From assembly GCA_964017185.1 (NCBI GenBank), contig OZ024870.1:30217621-30281620 (forward strand): DNA of 64,000 nucleotides, read 5' to 3'. Below, one piece after another: positions 12,422-40,254 of the stretch; the first letter of the stretch is position 1, and each line of letters begins with the position of its first letter. This DNA is from Rugalucina vietnamica (Eukaryota; Mollusca; Bivalvia; Lucinida; Lucinidae). The notes below the pieces were generated by a model, which saw only the letters and a list, made by a program, of their open reading frames with translations, had not been told where the DNA came from and did not search any database. The position numbers and the translations under genes were made by a program.

Positions 12422-13140
12422 AAATATTGAATCTTATTTTAGATGCGCACTACAGAAAATTATCCTCCGATCATTAGCAAATTTGCACCTTCTTTTTTTG
12501 CTGTGCAACATTAAGCTCAGAAAGAATGAGCTTATTCATTCTGTAATCATAATCATGCATGATAATTATCGAGACTCGTATTGAGAAAATTAGCCAAACA
12601 GCATGTTATTTTAAATATATCAGAAATATATTTTGTTTGTTTGCAGTTTATAATCCCTGCCAACAATTTTTTAGTGATGTCAAGATTGAACCACATAACT
12701 TTTCGAGGATATTTACCAGTACTATCGGAGTTAATAGAGAGGTTGAGAAAATAAACTTGTAACGTGTACGTGTACTTGTAGCTTTATTTACCCGTACACG
12801 ATCGTTTTGAGTGTAAAATCGTTTGAGAAAATCGAACGTGTACGTGTAGATTTCATAAAGTATATACAGCTGAATTTTTTTATTGTTTATACATGTGTCG
12901 ATTCGCCTTTGGTCAGATATACTTCGGCTGCACGTGCAAAACGATTTGGCAACGCTTCATCGAACTTCGTTTCTGCTTGTACCTACCTGACCTATCGATG
13001 GAAACATATAAAGAAAACTTACAAGTCGCAAATTTATTTCATTCACAGCCTAACTGATTCTCAACGTGTAGCGAGTATTTTGAACTTGTAATAAATGACG
13101 AAGTTTGGGGATAAAACTGTTCTACACGTACACGTACAAG
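12422..13140. other. Region upstream of non-LTR element; nothing recognised
   Basis: It includes several CGTGTACGTGTAC-type alternating motifs between 12765 and 13140. These may be the insertion context or a decayed 5' UTR of the non-LTR element. No coding domain was found. Confidence 0.4.
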
Positions 13141-14565
13141 TTACAAGTTCATTTAGTATTGGAGCGTGTAGTAGAAGGACTCATCCGACAAAGAGTTGGG
13201 ATTGATGAGATGCAGTGTGGGTTTATGTCAGGTCGTGGCACTACAGATGCGATTTTCATTGTCCGTCAACTACAAGAGAAGCACTTAGCTGCTAACAAGC
13301 TGCTCTACATGGCCTTCGTTGATCTGGAAAAAGCATTCGATCGGGTCCCACGGGATGTCATCTGGTGGGCAATGCGAAAATTAGGAATCGACGAGTGGCT
13401 AGTGCGCCTTGTCCAGTCCATATATAAAGACGTTAGAAGTAGGGTAAGAGTTGGCAGTGGATACAGTGAGGAGTTTGGTGTCAAAGTAGGTGTTCATCAG
13501 GGCTCTGTCCTAAGCCCGCTTCTCTTCATCATTGTGTTAGAGGCTTTATCCAGGGAGTTCCGAACAGGCTGCCCTTGGGAGCTGTTGTATGCAGATGACT
13601 TGATGATTAGTGCTGAGTCCATGGAGGAACTATTGGTAAAGCTGAAGACATGGAAAGCAGAGATGGAGAGGAAAGGCCTTCGAGTGAACATGGGGAAGAC
13701 AAAGATCATGGTCTCTGGCCCCAATCTGGACCTTCTGAAAAAATCTGGAAAGGATCCCTGTGGCGTCTGTCAGACAGGTGTAGGAAGAAATGCTATCTTC
13801 TGTGGTGGCTGCTTGTCCTGGATCCACAAGAAATGCAGCGGAATCAAAGGCCCCTTGCGCCCTGATCCTGATTTCAGATGTGCTCGCTGCCTAGGAAAGG
13901 CACGTCCAATAGATGGAAGACTAGTGAAGGAGGTTCAGGTTGATGACGAAACAGTTGAGGCTGTTCCAGAGTTCTGTTATCTGGGAGACATGCTTTCTGC
14001 TGGTGGTGGTTGTGAACTGGCTGCAATAACGCGTTGCAAATCCGCTTGGGGCAAGTTCCGACAGTTACTCCCCCTACTCACTAACCGCAATCTGCCACTT
14101 TTGACCAGAGGTCGAGTTTATTCAACTTGTGTGAGAAGTGTAATGCTGCATGCGGCAGAAACATGGGCCATGACTGTGGCTACACTTAACCACCTATGGC
14201 GCAATGACCGTGCGATGATCCGCTGGATCTGTAATGTCAAGGCGAATGATGAAGTAAGCTCAGACTCCCTTCTTTCAAAGCTTGGACTTCAGGATATAGA
14301 TGTGGTGCTTTGCTCCAGCAGAATGAGATGGTATGGACACGTAGAGCGCAGCAAAGGCTGGATTGCTCAAGTACGCAAGCTGAACATAGTTGCACAGAAA
14401 AGATCTGGCAAGCCAAGGAAATCATGGGATGAAGTGTTGTTAGACGACAGAAAAAAGCTAGGAATGGATACTGCTGATCCTCAGAATCGCTCAGAGTGGA
14501 GAGGTCGTCTAAGAAGGAGACTTGTCAAACAAGTCCAACCCTCAGTAGAGGACAACGGACTATAA
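13105..14565 (+). CDS. Non-LTR reverse transcriptase with PHD-like finger (partial)
   Basis: An open frame of 486 codons, uninterrupted. RT block motifs in order are GFMSGRGTTDA at residues 39-49, the motif A aspartate at 73 (FVDLEKAFDR), HQGSVLSPLL at 131-140, and the catalytic YADD at 162-165. Residues 219-262 carry C-x2-C-x10-C-x2-C-x4-H-x2-C-x14-C-x2-C, which is a C4HC3 PHD-type spacing. The C-terminal part has the RMRWYGHVER block and basic W-rich tail seen in RTE/L2-like elements. The first 20 or so residues are probably flanking sequence read in frame by chance, so the start codon is not meaningful. The N-terminal endonuclease is missing. The reverse transcriptase copies element RNA at a nicked target. 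Confidence 0.85.
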   Translation: MGIKLFYTYTYKLQVHLVLERVVEGLIRQRVGIDEMQCGFMSGRGTTDAIFIVRQLQEKHLAANKLLYMAFVDLEKAFDRVPRDVIWWAMRKLGIDEWLVRLVQSIYKDVRSRVRVGSGYSEEFGVKVGVHQGSVLSPLLFIIVLEALSREFRTGCPWELLYADDLMISAESMEELLVKLKTWKAEMERKGLRVNMGKTKIMVSGPNLDLLKKSGKDPCGVCQTGVGRNAIFCGGCLSWIHKKCSGIKGPLRPDPDFRCARCLGKARPIDGRLVKEVQVDDETVEAVPEFCYLGDMLSAGGGCELAAITRCKSAWGKFRQLLPLLTNRNLPLLTRGRVYSTCVRSVMLHAAETWAMTVATLNHLWRNDRAMIRWICNVKANDEVSSDSLLSKLGLQDIDVVLCSSRMRWYGHVERSKGWIAQVRKLNIVAQKRSGKPRKSWDEVLLDDRKKLGMDTADPQNRSEWRGRLRRRLVKQVQPSVEDNGL

Positions 14566-31296: not shown

Positions 31297-32186
31297 AAAT
31301 GTCAAAAAACATGGAGTCTGGTGACATCGTGTGATGCACCCTCCTACCTCAAGAAATCTCAGCAACTTTCATTTTTTGCTGTTGTTTTTCAAACTCCTGC
31401 TATTGACCTCCACACTGACGAGATGCACAGCAGTTTCCACCCCACTCCAAAATTAGGCTTTCAATTAAAATTTGCATACCAAAATGTTTTGTTTGTTATA
31501 TATGTAGGGCCATTGCTTCCTGGGTGTTACTACAGTAAGACACAACTCTTAGTACACCAGAATGAGTCAAATTTGCAACCTCTCCATTAGGAGTCCAGAC
31601 TGCACTAACCAAAAGGCTACCACACTTTCCCCTGATTTTTTTTTTCTTTTTTTCAGATCTCTAGATTTACTATAATTTCCAGTGTGTTCACAGCCTTTCC
31701 CTCTCCCCCAACCAGCTCTGTTTTGTTTTTCTTACAAGAAAACATTTATGTTACAGTTTGCACAACAGGACAACCTTTTAAGCGTTTTCCCTTTAACAAT
31801 TCTTTTTCACGCAGTTGCAATTTATTCTGAAGCGGTTTTGTTAGCTCTTTTATTGAGCACAAATCTTTCGGAAAAAGCTATCTAGTTGACTCAAGTTAAT
31901 CAATTAACAGCATTTCAGATAACAATCGAAACTCCCCACTGATTTTGACTCAAAACGCCTTTAGATTCCAATCTCACTTAAGTGAAATGGTATACGCTAA
32001 CAGAAAACCGAATATAGCGGGGAGTATTTCGTGACAATTTAGGTTTAAGTTTGCTTATTTCTTCATTAAAGGACACTTTTAACTAGAATAAATGAGGTGT
32101 TTATAGCAACGTGATTTAAATGAGTACCCACAACATAGCTTTTTAAAAAGAGCTATAAAAATCTCCGAATTACGGTACCATCAGAT
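31297..32186. other. Intron, nothing recognised
   Basis: A short polypyrimidine run near 31640 and a possible SINE scrap (ACCAAAAGGCTACCACAC) near 31600. No gene was found. Confidence 0.5.
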
Positions 32187-32420
32187 GAGCCACCTAATGA
32201 GAAAACCAACAATCTGCATATGTGAAAATAAAGACGCAGATCAGCTTCGCGGTAACCGCAAAGCCGATCAGCGCCTTTGTTTTCGCTAAATGGATAGTAC
32301 AATCCCTCTTCTACTTAAATACAAAATTTCAAGCTTTGAGGCATCTTCTGTGCTTGTACAGCTCTGTTTGTGTCAGACCTGTTCGGAAACCACATTGTTG
32401 GTTTTCCCACGAGGCGGCTC
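32187..32420 (-). mobile_element. MITE family 1 copy next to the DIRS insertion
   Basis: Ends GAGCCACCTAATGAGAAAACC and GAGGCGGCTC. Flanks AGAT and AAAT differ at one base. The DIRS element begins five bases beyond its right end. Confidence 0.9.
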
Positions 32421-32468
32421 AAATATTAAATTTTTATAAGTAAAATTTATTTTAATGATCATACTTAC

Positions 32469-32630
32469 GCTCATAGTTACATAATGCTTACTACTATTTC
32501 CCACGCTTGAAAAAATTTACGAGTCCATCGGAGGTGACCCTTGTATAACAAGGGGCGAGTTGACCCTTATCCAATACCGGGCTTTAGTCCGATAGAAGGA
32601 AACGGAAGTGACGTCTTCAGAATAATTTTC
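32469..32630. repeat. DIRS inverted terminal repeat (3' side)
   Basis: 162 bp that are the reverse complement of 38807-38968 except at one position (AACGGAAG here against AACAGAAG). Confidence 0.96.
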
Positions 32631-32673
32631 CAATCTAAAACAACTGGAAAGGGGGAGGAGGTGGGAACCTCAC

Positions 32674-32770
32674 TGTAACTATGAGCGTAAGTATGATCAT
32701 TAAAATAAATTTTACTTATAAAAATTTAATTTTAATTTCACATACGTTCCGCTCATAGTTACATAATGCT
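32674..32770. repeat. DIRS internal complementary region
   Basis: Bases 32674-32729 are the reverse complement of the 3' terminus (32426-32481). Bases 32728-32770 are the reverse complement of the 5' terminus (38949-38991). Together they spell the two element ends joined through one ATT. This is the diagnostic template that DIRS elements use to complete a circular intermediate. Confidence 0.96.
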
Positions 32771-33016
32771 AGAATAGAAACCTGATGGCAGGCTTTCCAG
32801 CAATAGACGTAACCATCCGATGAACTCGCAATCTGTCCAGAAAGGACCGAGGAATCTAATATGAGATTCCATCTGAAAGAGGTTGTAAAGGAGTAAATAT
32901 GTAATCATAAATGGTAATGTATAACCCCATAGAAACCTCTATCCTTTCTAGACAATGTCTATCAGATCTATTACCTTTGAAGGTCCGGAACAGCTTAGTT
33001 ATGGGCACAGATCCGA

Positions 33017-34105
33017 TTATGACTGGCTTGGACCCGGAACTTCGGGCCCCCCCACGACTCTTTGGGCAGTTACGACTGGGTCGAAGAGTGAGATATTGGG
33101 CTGCTGTCTTGACAGGTCTCGCAAATAATGCTTGGCAAAAGTGCACTGAGATGACCAGGTTGCCGCATTTATAACCTCGTTCAAAGGTATGTTGGACGCA
33201 TATGCCAATGAAGATGCCAACGCCCTTACTTCATGAGACTTAAAACTTAGCAAACTAGAACTACTTAAAGCTATATGTTTGTAAGCTAACTTAATTGTAA
33301 ACTTAATCCATCTTGACACAGAGGATTTATTTATATCATGATTACCCTTAATGGGTATGAACAGACGAGATCTATTACCTCGAGCTGTTTTAGTTCTCTC
33401 CAAATAGCATTTAACGGCCCTAACTGGACATAATTTTCTGTTAAAGCCAATAGATGCTGAAGCCCTCGGAATACTTGGAATACAGATCGATTGCGACGAT
33501 CTTGAGGGCAACTGATTCTTAGCAAAGAATCCAGGCTGAGTACGGATTGTTAGAGAACCATCTGAGTCAGAAAACCGAAGATGGTCCCTGTCCATAGATA
33601 AGGCATGCAGTTCACTAACACGTTTTGCTGAGGCCATAGCTAGCAGAAACGCTGTTTTCATAGTGAGATAGAGAACTGGAGCCTTGCTCAGAGGTTCATA
33701 TGGTGCCTTGCAAAGCGACAAAAGAACCAGTGAGAGATCCCATTTAGGAAATAAAGTTCTGTGAACTGGGCGTTCCAGTTCAAAGGATTTGATCAGTTCA
33801 GAGATGATTGGATCAGAACCAAAATCCCACTTAGAACTATACTTAAGGGTGTTTGAGAGCATGGCACGATAACCCTTAATAGTAGATACTTGAAGCTTCT
33901 TGACTTGAAATAAGAAAAGAAGGAAATCAGCTACAACCGAGGGAGTGACCGAGGCAGGATTAGTCTTCCGGCTTTTACACCAAGCGCTGAAGACATCCCA
34001 CTTGGCATCGTACACTCTCCTTGTAGAGGCCCTTCTAGAGTTAGCAACGAATGTGGCAACGTCTCTAGAAAAGTTTCTCTGTCTGACCGCTCGCTTGATA
34101 ACTCC
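33017..34105 (-). CDS. DIRS tyrosine recombinase
   Basis: The recombinase that would insert the circular DNA copy. The open frame extends to 35929 (970 codons), but upstream of about 34105 it is the out-of-frame shadow of the RT gene. The recognisable domain is its last 362 residues. In whole-frame numbering, R770 (AKRVSEL) is the first catalytic arginine, H899 and R902 form the HxxR box (SHEVRALA), W925 is the His/Trp position, and Y935 (KHYLRD) is the nucleophile ten residues after it. All expected residues are therefore present. The N-terminal part has the STRRVYDAKWDVFSAWC block typical of DIRS recombinases. It overlaps the end of the RT/RNase H frame by about 175 bases, in a different frame. 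There is no convincing AUG at the overlap. Confidence 0.92.
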   Translation of the reverse strand, partial: GVIKRAVRQRNFSRDVATFVANSRRASTRRVYDAKWDVFSAWCKSRKTNPASVTPSVVADFLLFLFQVKKLQVSTIKGYRAMLSNTLKYSSKWDFGSDPIISELIKSFELERPVHRTLFPKWDLSLVLLSLCKAPYEPLSKAPVLYLTMKTAFLLAMASAKRVSELHALSMDRDHLRFSDSDGSLTIRTQPGFFAKNQLPSRSSQSICIPSIPRASASIGFNRKLCPVRAVKCYLERTKTARGNRSRLFIPIKGNHDINKSSVSRWIKFTIKLAYKHIALSSSSLLSFKSHEVRALASSLAYASNIPLNEVINAATWSSQCTFAKHYLRDLSRQQPNISLFDPVVTAQRVVGGPEVPGPSQS

Positions 34106-36057
34106 CAGGCGTGAAGTGCAAGCATTTGCGGATTTTGATGAAGAAACTTCCCGTTCAACTGCCCTAGAAGGTCTGAAGTTATGGGAAGAGTTATTGGACG
34201 TGAGACTAACAGGTCTAACAGGTCCGGAAACCACGCTTTGTGTGGCCAAAACGGGGCAATCAAGACTACTCTGCACCGAGATTGTCTGACCTTGTCGAGA
34301 ACATTCGGAATGACATGAAATGGTGGAAACGCATATCCGTGGATATTGTTCCAATCCATAGTCAGGGCGTCTATCGCCATGGCATTCATGTCCGGAATGG
34401 GCGACACGTAGATCGGAAGGCGATGATTGAGACGTGTTGCAAAGAGATCCATGTTCGGGAAGTTTGTCAACTGAAACACTCTGTTGGCTACAGACTGATT
34501 GAGTGTCCATTCCGTCTGAATAGGCTTGGACATGCGCGAAAGTCTGTCTGCCAGTATATTGAACCTGCCGGGAATATGTCTCACTTGCAGGGCAACTTTG
34601 TGTTGTTGACACCATCGAAGGGTGCTCCACACTTCGAAACACAGGTTCGGTGAGTGTGTGCCTCCTTGTCTCCTGATGTATGACACCACTGTCGAATTGT
34701 CCGTTGACACTAATACCAGAGACCCGCGAATAACTAGTAAGGCTTCGTGAAGCGCTAGAGTTATTGCCTTCATCTCTAATAAATTGATGTGTAGATGGGA
34801 CTGGTCTGGAGTCCAAACACCATGAAACAGAAGTCCCTCTGGTTCTAGATGGGCGCCCCAGCCCAGATTGCTTGCATCGCAAAATAGATGGTGCTTGGGT
34901 GCGCTGACTTTGAGAGGAACTCCCTGAAGTAACCGGTGTTCGTTGGACCACCAAGACAGATGGTGACGAATTTCCGGGGAAATTTGAATTTTCTGGTCTA
35001 GAGAATTGAGATGTGGTCTCCACTGTGAGAGGAGCGAGAACTGGAGTGGTCTGAGATGAAGTCGACCCAACTCCACATAATCCGCTGCTGCATTCAACTT
35101 GCCCAAGAGGGAGAGAAACAGTCTGGCAGAGACTTCTTTCCTCTGGACAAAAAGCGAAACCATGAGAGTCAGTGCCTGAATCCTGTCTATTGGAACTCTG
35201 ACAAGATTCTGTTTCGTAAGAAACTCCATCCCTATGAAGATGAAATTCTGTGATAACTGGAGATCTGATTTCTCCTGGTTGATCAGCAGACCTAGAGATG
35301 GAATCAGTTGCAGAACAAAATGTCTGTCCTGAACGAGACGTAGATAGTTCTGATTTTTTATGAGCCAATCGTCCAAGTATGGAAATAGCGTGATTGAACG
35401 ACGGCGAAGGTACGTGGCAATCACCAGCATCAGACGAGTGAACACATAAGGACTGGACGTCAGTCCAAATGGGAGCGCTCGAAATTGGTAGACCTTTCCG
35501 TGAAGAGTGAAGCGAAGAAACTTCCGGAAGTGTCTGTGAATCGGAACGTGTAAATAAGCGTCCGTCAAGTCCAGAGAGAAAGCCCAGTCTCCTGGAAGAA
35601 TAGCATTCCGGACTTTCTGGCATGATTCCATTGTGAAAGTCCTGGGAGCAATGAATGCATTTAGGGAAGATAGATCGATGATCAAGCGAAGCTTCCCGTT
35701 CTTTTTGGGAACCAGAAAAATTCTTGAGTAGAATCCGGGATCTTCCGGAATTACACACTCCACTGCCCGTTTTCGGAGAAGATTTGACACCTCTTCTTCC
35801 AGTTCTGGTCTGGACGACTGTTGGAAGAAGATTGGGTCCTTTGATAGAGGTGGTAACTCCTCGAAAGGAATTTTGTATCCTCTTTCTATCAAAGAAAGGA
35901 CCCATCGGTCGTTGGTGACCTCTTGCCATTGCTGGACAAAGAGGGCCAACCTTCCACCGACCGGAAGATTTGGTTGTACGGGTAGTGGAGAGGGGGCATC
36001 AGTGACGTCTGTTACCGGCCCCCTTACGAGAGAAAGGATTCTTAGAAGAGTCTTTGC
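33931..36057 (-). CDS. DIRS reverse transcriptase/RNase H
   Basis: The frame is open from 36057, just after a TGA in this frame, to the stop at 33931. It overlaps the last 59 bases of the Gag frame. No in-frame ATG lies before the conserved domain; TTG at 35949 is only a nominal start used for numbering here. RT runs over about residues 50-245 with motif A D127 (SLDLTDAYLH) and the catalytic YLDD at 191-194. RNase H spans about 352-472 with D358, E392, D417 and D468 all present. A downstream region (DLFATRLNHR…) is the conserved linker found before the recombinase in DIRS polyproteins. It lies in the +1 frame relative to Gag, so translation by frameshift, reinitiation or another route has to be assumed. 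The gene is intact. Confidence 0.94.
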   Translation of the reverse strand, partial: AKTLLRILSLVRGPVTDVTDAPSPLPVQPNLPVGGRLALFVQQWQEVTNDRWVLSLIERGYKIPFEELPPLSKDPIFFQQSSRPELEEEVSNLLRKRAVECVIPEDPGFYSRIFLVPKKNGKLRLIIDLSSLNAFIAPRTFTMESCQKVRNAILPGDWAFSLDLTDAYLHVPIHRHFRKFLRFTLHGKVYQFRALPFGLTSSPYVFTRLMLVIATYLRRRSITLFPYLDDWLIKNQNYLRLVQDRHFVLQLIPSLGLLINQEKSDLQLSQNFIFIGMEFLTKQNLVRVPIDRIQALTLMVSLFVQRKEVSARLFLSLLGKLNAAADYVELGRLHLRPLQFSLLSQWRPHLNSLDQKIQISPEIRHHLSWWSNEHRLLQGVPLKVSAPKHHLFCDASNLGWGAHLEPEGLLFHGVWTPDQSHLHINLLEMKAITLALHEALLVIRGSLVLVSTDNSTVVSYIRRQGGTHSPNLCFEVWSTLRWCQQHKVALQVRHIPGRFNILADRLSRMSKPIQTEWTLNQSVANRVFQLTNFPNMDLFATRLNHRLPIYVSPIPDMNAMAIDALTMDWNNIHGYAFPPFHVIPNVLDKVRQSRCRVVLIAPFWPHKAWFPDLLDLLVSRPITLPITSDLLGQLNGKFLHQNPQMLALHAWELSSERSDRETFLETLPHSLLTLEGPLQGECTMPSGMSSALGVKAGRLILPRSLPRL

Positions 36058-38458
36058 TCATAGGGGGTTTACCAGGGCTATACTTCTTAGTATAGTCCTG
36101 TTTAGGCTTTTGAAGAGGAGGAGGCTTTCTAGGAGTAGGTTTCTTCCCCTTAGACTTGTTCTGAGAAACTGGCTTTGGGGCAGTAAACTGTTTTTTGCTT
36201 GTCGAAGCCTCGTCAACTAGGGCATCCCTTTTTTCCTTGATGTCCTTTTGACGAACCTCCTCAAGGGTACCACCAAACAAAGTGTCTGATGTAAGTGGTA
36301 CCTTCTTAAGACTAGCCTTGGCAGAGCTCGATAGAGATTTTCCAGTGGCTATGGTAGCATCTCTTCTGGCACTAAAAAGCTCGGCAGTTAGAACAGAAGA
36401 AAGGCCAGCAGCATGTCTGATGGAAACACCAAGAGACTGGAGGATACGCTTGAGAATCGAGGGGTTAAGCTCCTCTTGCTCAAGGCATTTAAAGGCTGCC
36501 ACTGAGAATGTATCTGCGTGTGATAAAATTCTCATAAGTTGACGAGCCTGGTCCTCCATAGCTGTGATATTTTTCAGTGGAAGTGAGGCGGAGCCAGAAG
36601 CTGAAAAATCCAGCAAATAACCATCTTGATCAAGTTCAGGTGCCTTCAATGAAGGTGTAGACTCATTATGGCACTTATAACTTTTAATTGGAGCTAGTTT
36701 ACTCAGTACCTTAGATTCAACGATCCAATCAGGCTTCAAAATAGCCTTGTCACAGTGTTTCTCAAGATAATTCCATGTATCTTGGATCACTTGTGCTTGA
36801 GGTAAAGAGCATGATGGTTTAGTATCAACCTTCAGTAGTCGCTCAATGGCCGACTGAGGAAGACTAGCGGAAGGGGAAGAGTCTCTAGGATACTCTTCAG
36901 CAGGCAAGAGTTTGTAAATCTCTTCAATGGTCTGTGAGAAGGAGATTGACTCCTCCTGCTCGATAGACTGATCAGTCTGATTGACAGTCGAATGCGATCT
37001 GTGAGAAGTATTATCATCAAATTCATTATCTCTTGCATGAATAGAGATTTTGTCATCATCTGAATTAATGACCCTAGAATGATGACGTGGCGAATCCTTA
37101 GGAATACTCTGTCTGACAACAGAATCCCTAGAATCACGTCTCTTAGTTCTGTCAGGACTCAAAGAGTCTGAAGAAGTGGAAGAAGAGGAGGGGGAACGCT
37201 TGCGCTTCCTATCCTTCTTGTGCTTTTTAGATGTCTTATGTTTCCTATGGAAATCATAAGAGACAGAGGAAGAACTAGACCTATGTTGTCTTTTCTTCTT
37301 GTGACGTTGATGGGTAAAAGGGTTTGAGCCATAAAAATAGCTGATACCCTGAGCTCCTGAAAGATGATCGCGTTGCCATGCTGGCGGATCAGGACCCAAA
37401 GGTCTTAAATCCAATTGTCTAGGAACAAAGGAGTCTCTACGAGACTGCCTATGAGAATATATAGAGCGTTCCTTTGACCGAGATCTATCTCTAGAACGTC
37501 TATGACGATGGAAGTGCCTACTATCCGAATGAATAGAAACAGGACTGCCTGAGGCAGAACGTGTTTTGGGTCTAGAGTTGGAACGACTAAGAGACCTAGA
37601 GTGGTCTCTAGAGTGTCTCCCATGACCTGAGGAACGGCTTGAACCAGACCGGACCGAACCGGACCGAACAGAACCGGACCTCTCCCTAGAACGATGTCGA
37701 GAAGAATCCGACTTTTTCTTGGGAACTGGATTGTCTCTGTGGCTGGAACGGACCGAACCGGACCGGACCGAGTCTGTCCTCTCTTTAGAATGATGCAGGA
37801 CTGAACCGGACCCATTCTTAGAGTTAGACTCATTCAGAGCACCGGACCGAGCACCGGACCGAGCACCGGACCAGACCGGACCGGACTTGTCCTTGGCAGA
37901 GGACTTGGAGAGTCCACTGGATGTGTCCTTCGTACCCGACCGGACCGAGCCGGACCGGACCGAGCCGGACTTGTCTTTGTCCTTGCGATAATCAGAACGA
38001 TCACCGGACCGGACACGGTGGGAGGGATCACCACCGGACCGGACAGAATCCCTAGGGAGACTGCCGGACTTGTCCCTAGCCACATGTCCCCCTTGCTTGT
38101 CGGCTAAACCGGACATTGAAGGAGGATCAGGCTTAGGGGTCGAACCGGAAGGATCGACATCACCCTCGGACTCCACAGCAGACCTCTCGGAAGAGTCTAG
38201 ACCCATCTCGTTGAGTGCTTCCTTGGTTGTTTTGGCAGGAGATTGGTTTGAGTTGTTAGTTCTTCTAACCATCTCGGAATGCTTCAACACCTTCTTACGA
38301 TAAGAACGGCGACGTTCAAACAAAGACCACGTTTGGGAAGGCCAAGTTCTACAAATAGAGCACATATTAGACCTAGAACACTTTGTGCAATTAACACAAG
38401 ATAGATGGTCATCGTAAGAGGCCTTCTTATGGCCACAAGAACCGGTAAGTTGAGGCAT
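35999..38458 (-). CDS. DIRS Gag-like protein, Arg/Ser-rich
   Basis: An 819-residue open frame starting at a true ATG (38458) and the first gene of the element. The N-terminus has a cysteine cluster at C8, C21, C24, C27, C33 and C36, with histidines at 10 and 18, a likely zinc-binding unit. Residues of roughly 120-330 are dominated by RSGSVRSG and SRDRSRS-type repeats, like host SR proteins. A central acidic and hydrophobic part follows, and the C-terminus is very lysine-rich (KSKGKKPTPRKPP). By position it corresponds to the Gag of DIRS elements, which packages the RNA. The homology of the central part cannot be judged by eye. The R/S region is encoded by tandem ACCGGACCGA-type DNA, so its length is likely variable. 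Confidence 0.88.
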   Translation of the reverse strand: MPQLTGSCGHKKASYDDHLSCVNCTKCSRSNMCSICRTWPSQTWSLFERRRSYRKKVLKHSEMVRRTNNSNQSPAKTTKEALNEMGLDSSERSAVESEGDVDPSGSTPKPDPPSMSGLADKQGGHVARDKSGSLPRDSVRSGGDPSHRVRSGDRSDYRKDKDKSGSVRSGSVRSGTKDTSSGLSKSSAKDKSGPVWSGARSGARSGALNESNSKNGSGSVLHHSKERTDSVRSGSVRSSHRDNPVPKKKSDSSRHRSRERSGSVRSGSVRSGSSRSSGHGRHSRDHSRSLSRSNSRPKTRSASGSPVSIHSDSRHFHRHRRSRDRSRSKERSIYSHRQSRRDSFVPRQLDLRPLGPDPPAWQRDHLSGAQGISYFYGSNPFTHQRHKKKRQHRSSSSSVSYDFHRKHKTSKKHKKDRKRKRSPSSSSTSSDSLSPDRTKRRDSRDSVVRQSIPKDSPRHHSRVINSDDDKISIHARDNEFDDNTSHRSHSTVNQTDQSIEQEESISFSQTIEEIYKLLPAEEYPRDSSPSASLPQSAIERLLKVDTKPSCSLPQAQVIQDTWNYLEKHCDKAILKPDWIVESKVLSKLAPIKSYKCHNESTPSLKAPELDQDGYLLDFSASGSASLPLKNITAMEDQARQLMRILSHADTFSVAAFKCLEQEELNPSILKRILQSLGVSIRHAAGLSSVLTAELFSARRDATIATGKSLSSSAKASLKKVPLTSDTLFGGTLEEVRQKDIKEKRDALVDEASTSKKQFTAPKPVSQNKSKGKKPTPRKPPPLQKPKQDYTKKYSPGKPPMSKDSSKNPFSRKGAGNRRH
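37640..38050. repeat. GGACCGAACC-type internal repeat in Gag
   Basis: Many copies of GGACCG/GAACCG variants in short runs, for example three adjacent AGCACCGGACCG units near 37840-37870. They encode the RSGSVRSG and GARSG stretches. Confidence 0.85.
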
Positions 38459-38806
38459 AAGATAGAAGCATAAAAATATTAACCAAGGAAAATATTATTC
38501 TTCAAGTAAGAATAAATAAAAATGCACTCTAAAATTACTAGAAAAAATTCTAGTGAAAGAAAATTTCCTACCTGTCAGAGCAAGACAAAATGTCCGGCCG
38601 AAATGGCTAGCTCGGAAAACGGGTAAGTCCGAATACGGAAAAAAATGACTCACAATAATCCAATTGATGAATGGAAGGGCTAGAAATACTAGCGTCAAGC
38701 GTAGGATAATAACAGCGACGAACAAAGAGACAGAGGGGGCCGAATATTATCTAAAAGATAATAATTTTTGCAGAGCAAAGAATGGCTGAACTGTCACGCG
38801 TCGCTT

Positions 38807-38968
38807 GAAAATTATTCTGAAGACGTCACTTCTGTTTCCTTCTATCGGACTAAAGCCCGGTATTGGATAAGGGTCAACTCGCCCCTTGTTATACAAGGGT
38901 CACCTCCGATGGACTCGTAAATTTTTTCAAGCGTGGGAAATAGTAGTAAGCATTATGTAACTATGAGC
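38807..38968. repeat. DIRS inverted terminal repeat (5' side)
   Basis: Partner of 32469-32630. Outside it the two termini differ: AAATTTTTATAAG at the 3' side, and GAACGTATGTGAAATTAAAATT at the 5' side. Confidence 0.96.
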
Positions 38969-39280
38969 GGAACGTATGTGAAATTAAAATTCCCTTTATC
39001 TGGCCTTCTGTACTGACAACTTTTTCGGGGACAATTATCGGCTTGTTCAATCGCAGAAGTGATAATGAACTGTAAGTTTCTATTACCCAACCTGGTCTAT
39101 AAACGGTCACCATTGACAGGTAATTCAGAAAACTGTGCTAGATTTCACTTATTTATACATAATTATATTCCTGTGTTGAATCCACATCCCGTCTAAATTA
39201 TGAAACAGAGAAAAACGCCACCAATATGGATAGTAATAGCTTGCCTGATAAGGTCAAACATAAAACTTTGATTTACAAAT

Positions 39281-39516
39281 GAGCCGCGACATGAGAAAAC
39301 CGGTCTTCGGGGTTTCCATCCAGGTCTGACACAAACCGGTCTGTTCTGTCACAGAAGGTGGTTAGAGGCTGGAAATTTTGGATTTAGAAAGAAGAGGAAT
39401 TGTACTATCCGTGTAGCGAAAACAAAGGCGATGATCAGCTTCGCAGCTACTGCGAAGCTGATCTGCGCCTATGCTTTAGGCATAGGCAAAAATCCTGTTT
39501 TCTCATGATGCGGCTC
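39281..39516 (+). mobile_element. MITE family 1 copy
   Basis: Ends GAGCCGCGACATGAGAAAACC and GATGCGGCTC with perfect AAAT flanks. The hairpin is near-perfect, centred on GCAGCTACTGC. Confidence 0.94.
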
Positions 39517-40254
39517 AAATTATGCCGAAGTAATTGCAAATGTCCACAAGGGAATATTTCCTAACTAAGCTGCCTACCTACTTTTATCTTCTTGCACAAA
39601 ACCATGGCATTTCTTCTATGTATGTTGTGTTGTTTATATCTTGTTCACCGATTTTTGTGCTACAAACAACGTAGTTCATTTTTGATGCAAACAGTGAGTT
39701 ATGACCCACTCCGTAACTGTGTATTTAAAAAGTTTCAAAGTACCAGATTCTTTATGACCATAGCATAAATATGATGTTTTATATCCAACCAATACCTATG
39801 ATCAGGTGGAGACATGACCTGGTTTGTTTGTTTATTTTAGTTGTTTACACCGAATGTCAACACTCAACAGCTAAGGTCATATTGAGATGGCCTATTACCC
39901 TAACCACGCTGTACTGGGCAAACTTCCTGGAGGCAGTTTACCAGAACTTAGTGCACATTTCTTTCATATAAAGCCCATAACCAAACTGCTCTTGGTCTGC
40001 TCTGTTTACCAAGGCCTATTAATCTGAAAACTGTTTGTTTTGAACTTTAGGATCTTTCCAGCAGCTCTAACTCATAGTAAATTTCTGTTCAAGAGTAATT
40101 ATGTAACCATTTGGTAAGCATAATGCTTGCCAATATAGCTCCAGAAAATGTATCAGAACTGTATCAATTCTTCAGTGATGAATCATTACGCCCCATGTTC
40201 AATCATTTATAAAGCATGAAGTGATAAATATATCAGGAACTAGCATATCTTGAT
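39517..40254. other. Intron with SINE C-like scraps
   Basis: A stretch at about 39840-39960 (CAACAGCTAAGGTCATATTGA) resembles the reversed tail of SINE C. The rest is unrecognised. Confidence 0.4.

Follow-up and report, generated by a model that had tools for sequence, protein, structure and literature searches.

A recently amplified DIRS1-like retrotransposon of Rugalucina vietnamica with gag and tyrosine recombinase frames in one phase

Elements of the DIRS1-like group carry inverted terminal repeats (ITRs), internal complementary regions (ICRs) with a 3-bp joint, and genes for gag, for a tyrosine recombinase (YR) and for a reverse transcriptase, RNase H and methyltransferase (RT-RH-MT), according to PMC3266345. 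Long overlaps of open reading frames (ORFs) are tabulated there for half of 28 DIRS1-like elements and for none of the five from molluscs (Table 3), and an overlapping or frame-shifted YR is mentioned in PMC5633606, PMC3783388 and PMC9210276. The long ORF overlap itself is a known DIRS1-like feature, and the question it raises is how the recombinase is made. Here we describe a DIRS1-like element of 6,567 bp in a 64,000-nucleotide stretch of the genome of the bivalve Rugalucina vietnamica (contig OZ024870.1, positions 30,217,621 to 30,281,620), hereafter called the window. A COX1 sequence translated with code 5 looked bivalve-like on inspection by eye. The element is an ordinary one in very good condition, with a coding arrangement worth testing.

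The window element shares with the DIRS1-like elements of PMC3266345 the ITRs, the ICR overlap at a 3-bp joint, the right extension, the gag, RT-RH-MT and YR genes, with RH as a candidate domain here, and the lack of a target duplication. It exceeds their maximum length of 6,283 bp and, unlike the mollusc elements described there, it has a long overlap. LgDIRS2 of Lottia gigantea, read in the orientation of its genes, has the same start (AAT), end (AAT) and joint (ATT), a likeness drawn from tabulated features only; its conserved ITR is 141 bp versus about 166 here and, unlike the window element, it is 5,036 bp long and has no long ORF overlap (PMC3266345). DIRS-1 of Dictyostelium, whose circles are reported as experimentally verified, likewise has inverted repeats and an ORF2 (RT/RH/MT) that overlaps ORF3 (YR), according to PMC5633606. 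No statement of a shared gag/YR phase or of a stop-free overlap was found in the accessible text of the open-licence literature, and such a statement may be in print elsewhere; the term DIRS does not occur in the accessible text of a review of frameshifting (PMC5009743). No relatives were found in viral contigs.

Identity and recent amplification of the element

Re-analysis of the repeats, the ICR and the frames confirmed the extent and anatomy that the original prediction had given from the window sequence (Table 1). The ITR arms have a single interior mismatch, as had been claimed, at position 38830, where the window copy differs from all nine of its near-identical copies, and there is one further mismatch at the repeat edge. 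Outside the ITRs the two element ends differ from each other, as is the case for DIRS1-like elements that carry a right extension. A PAT-like or Ngaro-like identity was ruled out, as the ends are inverted repeats and not split direct repeats. The three long frames (gag, RT/RNase H/methyltransferase and YR) were indeed open on the minus strand, and none of them had a Pfam match to an aspartic protease or a DDE integrase at E 0.1, in agreement with the absence of both that had been proposed. The catalytic residues of RT, RNase H and recombinase were inspected by eye only.

In profile searches, the RT of the window element matched Pfam RVT_1 (E=1.5e-19), and its putative RNase H had a weak match to RT_RNaseH (E=0.035, and 7.5e-4 in the relative L051, both below Pfam's curated cut-off). 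The methyltransferase-like region matched PHROG_111 weakly in all three pol C-termini (window E=0.0021, best 9.1e-5), with no Pfam match to a methyltransferase in the window RT frame. The recombinase matched the integrase profile PHROG_1 in all three YR-domain sequences (window E=2.3e-7, best 3.8e-12), and its match in Pfam was only weak; the top Foldseek matches of a model of this domain, itself of low confidence (mean pLDDT 43.6), were Cre-type recombinases. The YR and methyltransferase profiles had no match among PDB sequences, the gag-like ORF had no Pfam match, and an Rfam scan of the window gave nothing at gathering score.

The 1.09-Gb assembly was searched for copies of the element with four queries: one stretch each from RT and from an element end, the protein sequence of RT, and the YR domain. 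The best candidates of these searches were scored (40 of 57, 21 of 21 and 63 of 3077), and counts of diverged members are lower bounds. Every query returned the same ten near-identical copies, all of them full length, followed by a gap to relatives of at most 84% identity (84% over a 282-base fragment only, otherwise at most 78%); no shortened near-identical member was present among the best candidates scored. Pairs of copies differ by 8–39 substitutions over 6.56 kb (0.12–0.6%, indels excluded), of which 3–15 per copy are private (85 in total, 11 in the window copy). The gag gene has deletions of 37 bp in L041, 12 bp in L046 and 2 bp in L047. All three frames are open in eight of the ten copies, including L046 with its in-frame deletion, and the YR frame is open in all ten. 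These findings bear out the earlier proposal of a recent insertion, and the other copies are not all old.

Together, the data support the element being young and recently active, and it may be active at present. Against this stand the two broken copies, L041 and L047, in each of which the gag frame is shifted and the RT frame has one stop. We are highly confident in the combined assignment of the element as a recently amplified, autonomous DIRS1-like retrotransposon with the insertion mode described below. The ten copies come from a single assembly and, being nearly equal, could in principle be old copies homogenized by gene conversion or by a collapsed assembly. We consider this highly improbable, since each copy has its own flanks and its own private changes, and since the differences between ITR arms match the private rate: besides an edge position common to all ten copies, the arms differ at one position in the window copy, one in L047, two in L048 and none in the other seven, that is, four interior mismatches at about the rate of private change.

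The private variants may also carry a trace of selection. In gag the ratio of nonsynonymous to synonymous variants was 17:15 versus 2.69:1 predicted by the substitution spectrum (one-sided P=0.013), and in the part of YR not shared with RT it was 4:6 versus 2.50:1 (P=0.038). Both ratios are below expectation, suggesting that a large share of the private changes originated in copies subject to selection. In the RT/YR overlap the private variants included two RT stops, both in the broken copies, and no YR stops.

The ICR bears on how such copies may be made. In the established DIRS model, element RNA would be copied to cDNA, and the ICR would bridge both ends and close a circle. The ICR equals the copy's own joined ends in all ten copies (97/97). 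The relative L051 (66% DNA identity with the window element across some 3 kb) has an ICR that matches its own two ends 56/56 and 43/43, and numerous mismatches and gaps appear when its joined ends are aligned to those of the window element; L052 shares this ICR and left end. Ends and ICR that change together between two families lend comparative support to the circle model. A point against it is the degraded relative L049, in which the match of left end and ICR is incomplete (90% over 80 columns).

Two observations on other DIRS elements of this genome may be added. L050 preserves what is left of an older relative (L050:4201-4964); one of its ends faces the inner part of the opposite end, an arrangement as might be left after deletion or inversion between inverted repeats. 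In several other DIRS families, 43–63% identical to the window element in RT, copies of near-equal score have open RT and YR frames, so that the DIRS elements of this genome, taken together, look recently active.

A shared gag/YR phase and a stop-free overlap

The gag frame, its stop codon and the YR frame lie in one phase, with the RT frame at +1, in seven of the eight families examined: that of the window element and those of L051, L056 and L061 (one family), L057, L058, L059 (of which L064 is a member) and L060. All of these relatives are from the same genome and are 43–63% identical to the window element in the RT frame. In the window element the RT frame opens 56 nt upstream of the gag stop. 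Counted from the gag stop, the first ATG of the RT frame lies 370–373 nt downstream in the window element (370 nt), L051 and L057 and 124 nt downstream in L060, and the fetched piece of L058 contains none.

To determine how many stops the YR frame would be expected to have, we used synonymous shuffles that preserve the RT protein and its codon counts. Over the first 114–160 codons past the gag stop there were no YR-frame stops in any of eight loci, versus 4.8 to 8.8 expected. Over the whole overlap the YR frame had 0 stops versus 31.2 +/- 4.0 in the window element and 0 versus 33.5 +/- 4.1 in L051, and L064 had 0 versus 31.0 +/- 3.9 over 576 codons. Genome-wide, open frames of at least 950 aa contain about 50 of 128 YR matches (a count by eye), down to 36% identity; at 27–33% identity, 21 of 24 lie in frames of 393–421 aa (also by eye).

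Between the window element and L051, identity at fourfold sites was 0.358 in the overlap (expected 0.256) and 0.427 in the unshared YR part (expected 0.290). As the fourfold sites of the overlap are not far from random, selection there seems to act mainly against stops. The YR-frame identity of the two across the overlap was 244/684 versus a null of 190.6 +/- 9.3, with the excess chiefly near the overlap ends (47/98 versus 28.1 and 37/85 versus 21.9), and it may in part be plain shared ancestry. No clear excess was seen between the window element and L058 or L059, its two most distant relatives.

Composition or codon usage could also leave the YR frame open as a by-product, without its being translated. 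The near-random fourfold sites between the window element and L051, and the weak conservation of most of the YR-frame protein in the overlap, are what such a by-product would give. We nevertheless regard this explanation as very improbable, because the shuffles never fell below 17 stops in the three families in which the observed number is 0, and because the third frame has more stops than the shuffles and not fewer (44 versus 35.2 in the window element, 58 versus 50.8 in L051 and 71 versus 53.5 in L064). The control L063, whose YR frame is 400 aa and which has no long overlap, was near normal: 40 stops versus 43.8 +/- 3.6 in the first RT piece and 20 versus 27.4 +/- 3.3 in the second, where the overlap of about 410 nt of the piece with YR can account for the lower number. 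The recurrence of YR frames of about 950–1000 aa down to 36% YR identity is also against a by-product. If the frame is translated, YR might be made separately, by re-initiation at an AUG just past the gag stop. A YR-frame ATG does follow the stop at 72 nt in the window element, 99 nt in L051, L056 and L061, 81 nt in L058 and 66 nt in L059. However, a YR-frame ATG is absent from the 131 codons of L057 and the 129 codons of L060 that follow the stop (to the end of the fetched pieces), and these ATG-less stretches are free of stops versus 7.25 and 6.94 expected from shuffles, so that we consider re-initiation rather unlikely. A conserved YR start codon past the gag stop was rejected as a candidate, the ATG of the window element, L051 and L056 being missing in L057 and L060.

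We therefore favor recoding at the gag stop, namely a +1 shift for RT and read-through for YR, because the YR frame is open from the gag stop onward and an AUG is missing there in two families. Termination at the one UGA would give Gag; RT of the window element would be reached by a +1 shift in the last gag codons or at the stop; and YR would most simply be made by read-through of the gag stop, as a Gag-YR fusion. The read-through step is a tentative proposal, which we put at somewhat below an even chance. The same guarded standing is given to the wider idea that the gag stop could be a three-way switch, at which stopping would yield Gag, a +1 shift Gag-RT and read-through Gag-YR. Such a switch would force the 2-kb stretch into two reading frames and, if true, would explain the recurrence of long ORF overlaps in DIRS elements. 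The gag/YR phase in seven families and the strict avoidance of stops over 2 kb make the long-noted overlap a testable question.

Several observations weigh against recoding at the stop. No in-phase gag could be assigned in L062, the eighth family, where stops occur in that frame shortly upstream. Six families end gag with TGA and L058 ends it with TAG, and the next codon is not conserved. An RT-frame ATG lies 10 nt after the gag stop in L059 and 197 nt before it in L056/L061, and RT could have its own start in these families. YR could also be produced from a non-AUG start codon or from a spliced mRNA. In addition, no common RNA structure was established across the seven stops: folds of the 100 nt downstream had z from -2.50 to +0.80, those of the 100 nt upstream from -3.10 (window) to -0.18, and a five-sequence alignment at the stop had one row out of register and a signal dominated by RT coding. 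Sharp synonymous conservation at the gag stop was not seen. The contexts TAG CAA (L058) and TGA CTC (L059) resemble known leaky-stop contexts, and those of the other five families do not.

Strand exchange at the integration sites

In the established DIRS model, the encoded YR would recombine the GAAATTAAAA|TTAAATTT joint of the circle with a target, mostly AAAA[T/C]. We numbered the circle joint so that positions 1–6 read AAAATT and compared the junctions of the ten copies. The left junction of the window copy reads AATATT, and that of each of the other nine AAAATT; the right junctions read AAAATT in three, AAAATG in four and AAAACA in three. Nine targets accordingly read AAAA[T/C], three of them AAAA followed by CA, and in the window copy alone the core common to circle and target is just ATT. 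As the ten insertions are young and have sharp junctions, the exchange of circle and target can be located to one base. A single exchange point at position 4, one A, fits all ten copies, eight of them informative and two uninformative: the left junction is target through position 4 and then circle, and the right junction is the reverse. The three ACA copies set position 4, and the four ATG copies position 5, as the rightmost limit of the exchange, which the window copy places to the right of position 3. The single ATT joint that had been proposed holds for the ICR and for the window insertion, and does not hold as a general integration core, since the ten copies share one A. L051 and its target have only AT in common, at the same place.

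The T at position 3 of the left junction of the window copy probably comes from the flanking repeat, that is, from the target. This repeat resembles a miniature inverted-repeat transposable element (MITE), and by our own count 24 of 39 other scored matches to it extend through the position-3 base, the letters not having been inspected. The empty site of the window copy was not found in this assembly, and its right flank is unique up to the MITE-like repeat. Related, non-orthologous empty sites with a single AAAA run were identified for six copies, in tandem repeat units (L042), in MITE-like copies (L044, L045, L048) and in repeats (L040, L041); the matches were less exact for L043 and L047, and no related empty sites were found for L039 and L046. 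L042 lies within a tandem array with a unit of roughly 373 bp, of which neighboring units are clean empty sites. In three of the ten insertions the target was the same GAAAACAAAGG site within related MITE-like repeats, which are very common in the window.

The junctions and the related empty sites indicated no separate target-site duplication. Since an AAAA run is present at both junctions in nine of the ten copies, one could read it as a 4-bp target duplication made by staggered cutting and repair rather than as recombination at a shared core. Against this, the repeated letters are identical in nine insertions and already within the ICR; the two sides of the window copy read AATATT and AAAATT; and the only letters common to L051 and its target are AT. 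We hold a duplication to be most improbable and prefer recombination between the circle and a short shared core.

Feature coordinates and genomic surroundings

Table 1. Features of the DIRS1-like element, in window coordinates.
Feature	Coordinates	Strand	Remarks
Whole DIRS1-like element	32425..38991	- (genes)	From anatomy, frames and copy comparison
Inverted terminal repeat, 5' side of genes	38807..38972		166 nt, 99% complementary to 32465-32630
Inverted terminal repeat, 3' side of genes	32465..32630		166 nt, partner of 38807-38972
Outer end matching one ICR half	38949..38991		Complementary 43/43
Other outer end, with right extension	32425..32481		Complementary to other ICR half
Internal complementary region (ICR)	32674..32770		Reverse complement of joined ends (right end + ATT + left end), 97/97
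Gag-like ORF	35999..38458	-	819 aa, ATG to TGA
Gag stop codon TGA	35999..36001	-	Sole stop between in-phase gag and YR frames
RT / RNase H / methyltransferase-like frame	33931..36057	-	708 aa, +1 relative to gag
YR frame	33017..35998	-	993 aa between stops, in phase with gag
RT/YR frame overlap	33934..35998	-	About 2.06 kb; 0 YR-frame stops
Tyrosine recombinase domain (core-binding and catalytic part)	33020..34141	-	PHROG_1; Foldseek
Left junction, positions 1–6 AATATT	32422..32427	+	Window copy
Right junction, positions 1–6 AAAATT	38986..38991	+	Window copy

The MITE-like repeat is partly palindromic and about 240 bp long. It is present on both flanks of the insertion, at 32185-32424 and about 39276-39517, and at some 20 further places in the window. 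Genome-wide, 4,568 and 5,235 candidates were obtained at first look, of which the best 40 of each were scored. Elsewhere in the window, an open frame at 13099-14565 has matches to a reverse transcriptase (E=2.5e-28) and a PHD finger (E=4.1e-6) and is probably part of a non-LTR retrotransposon.

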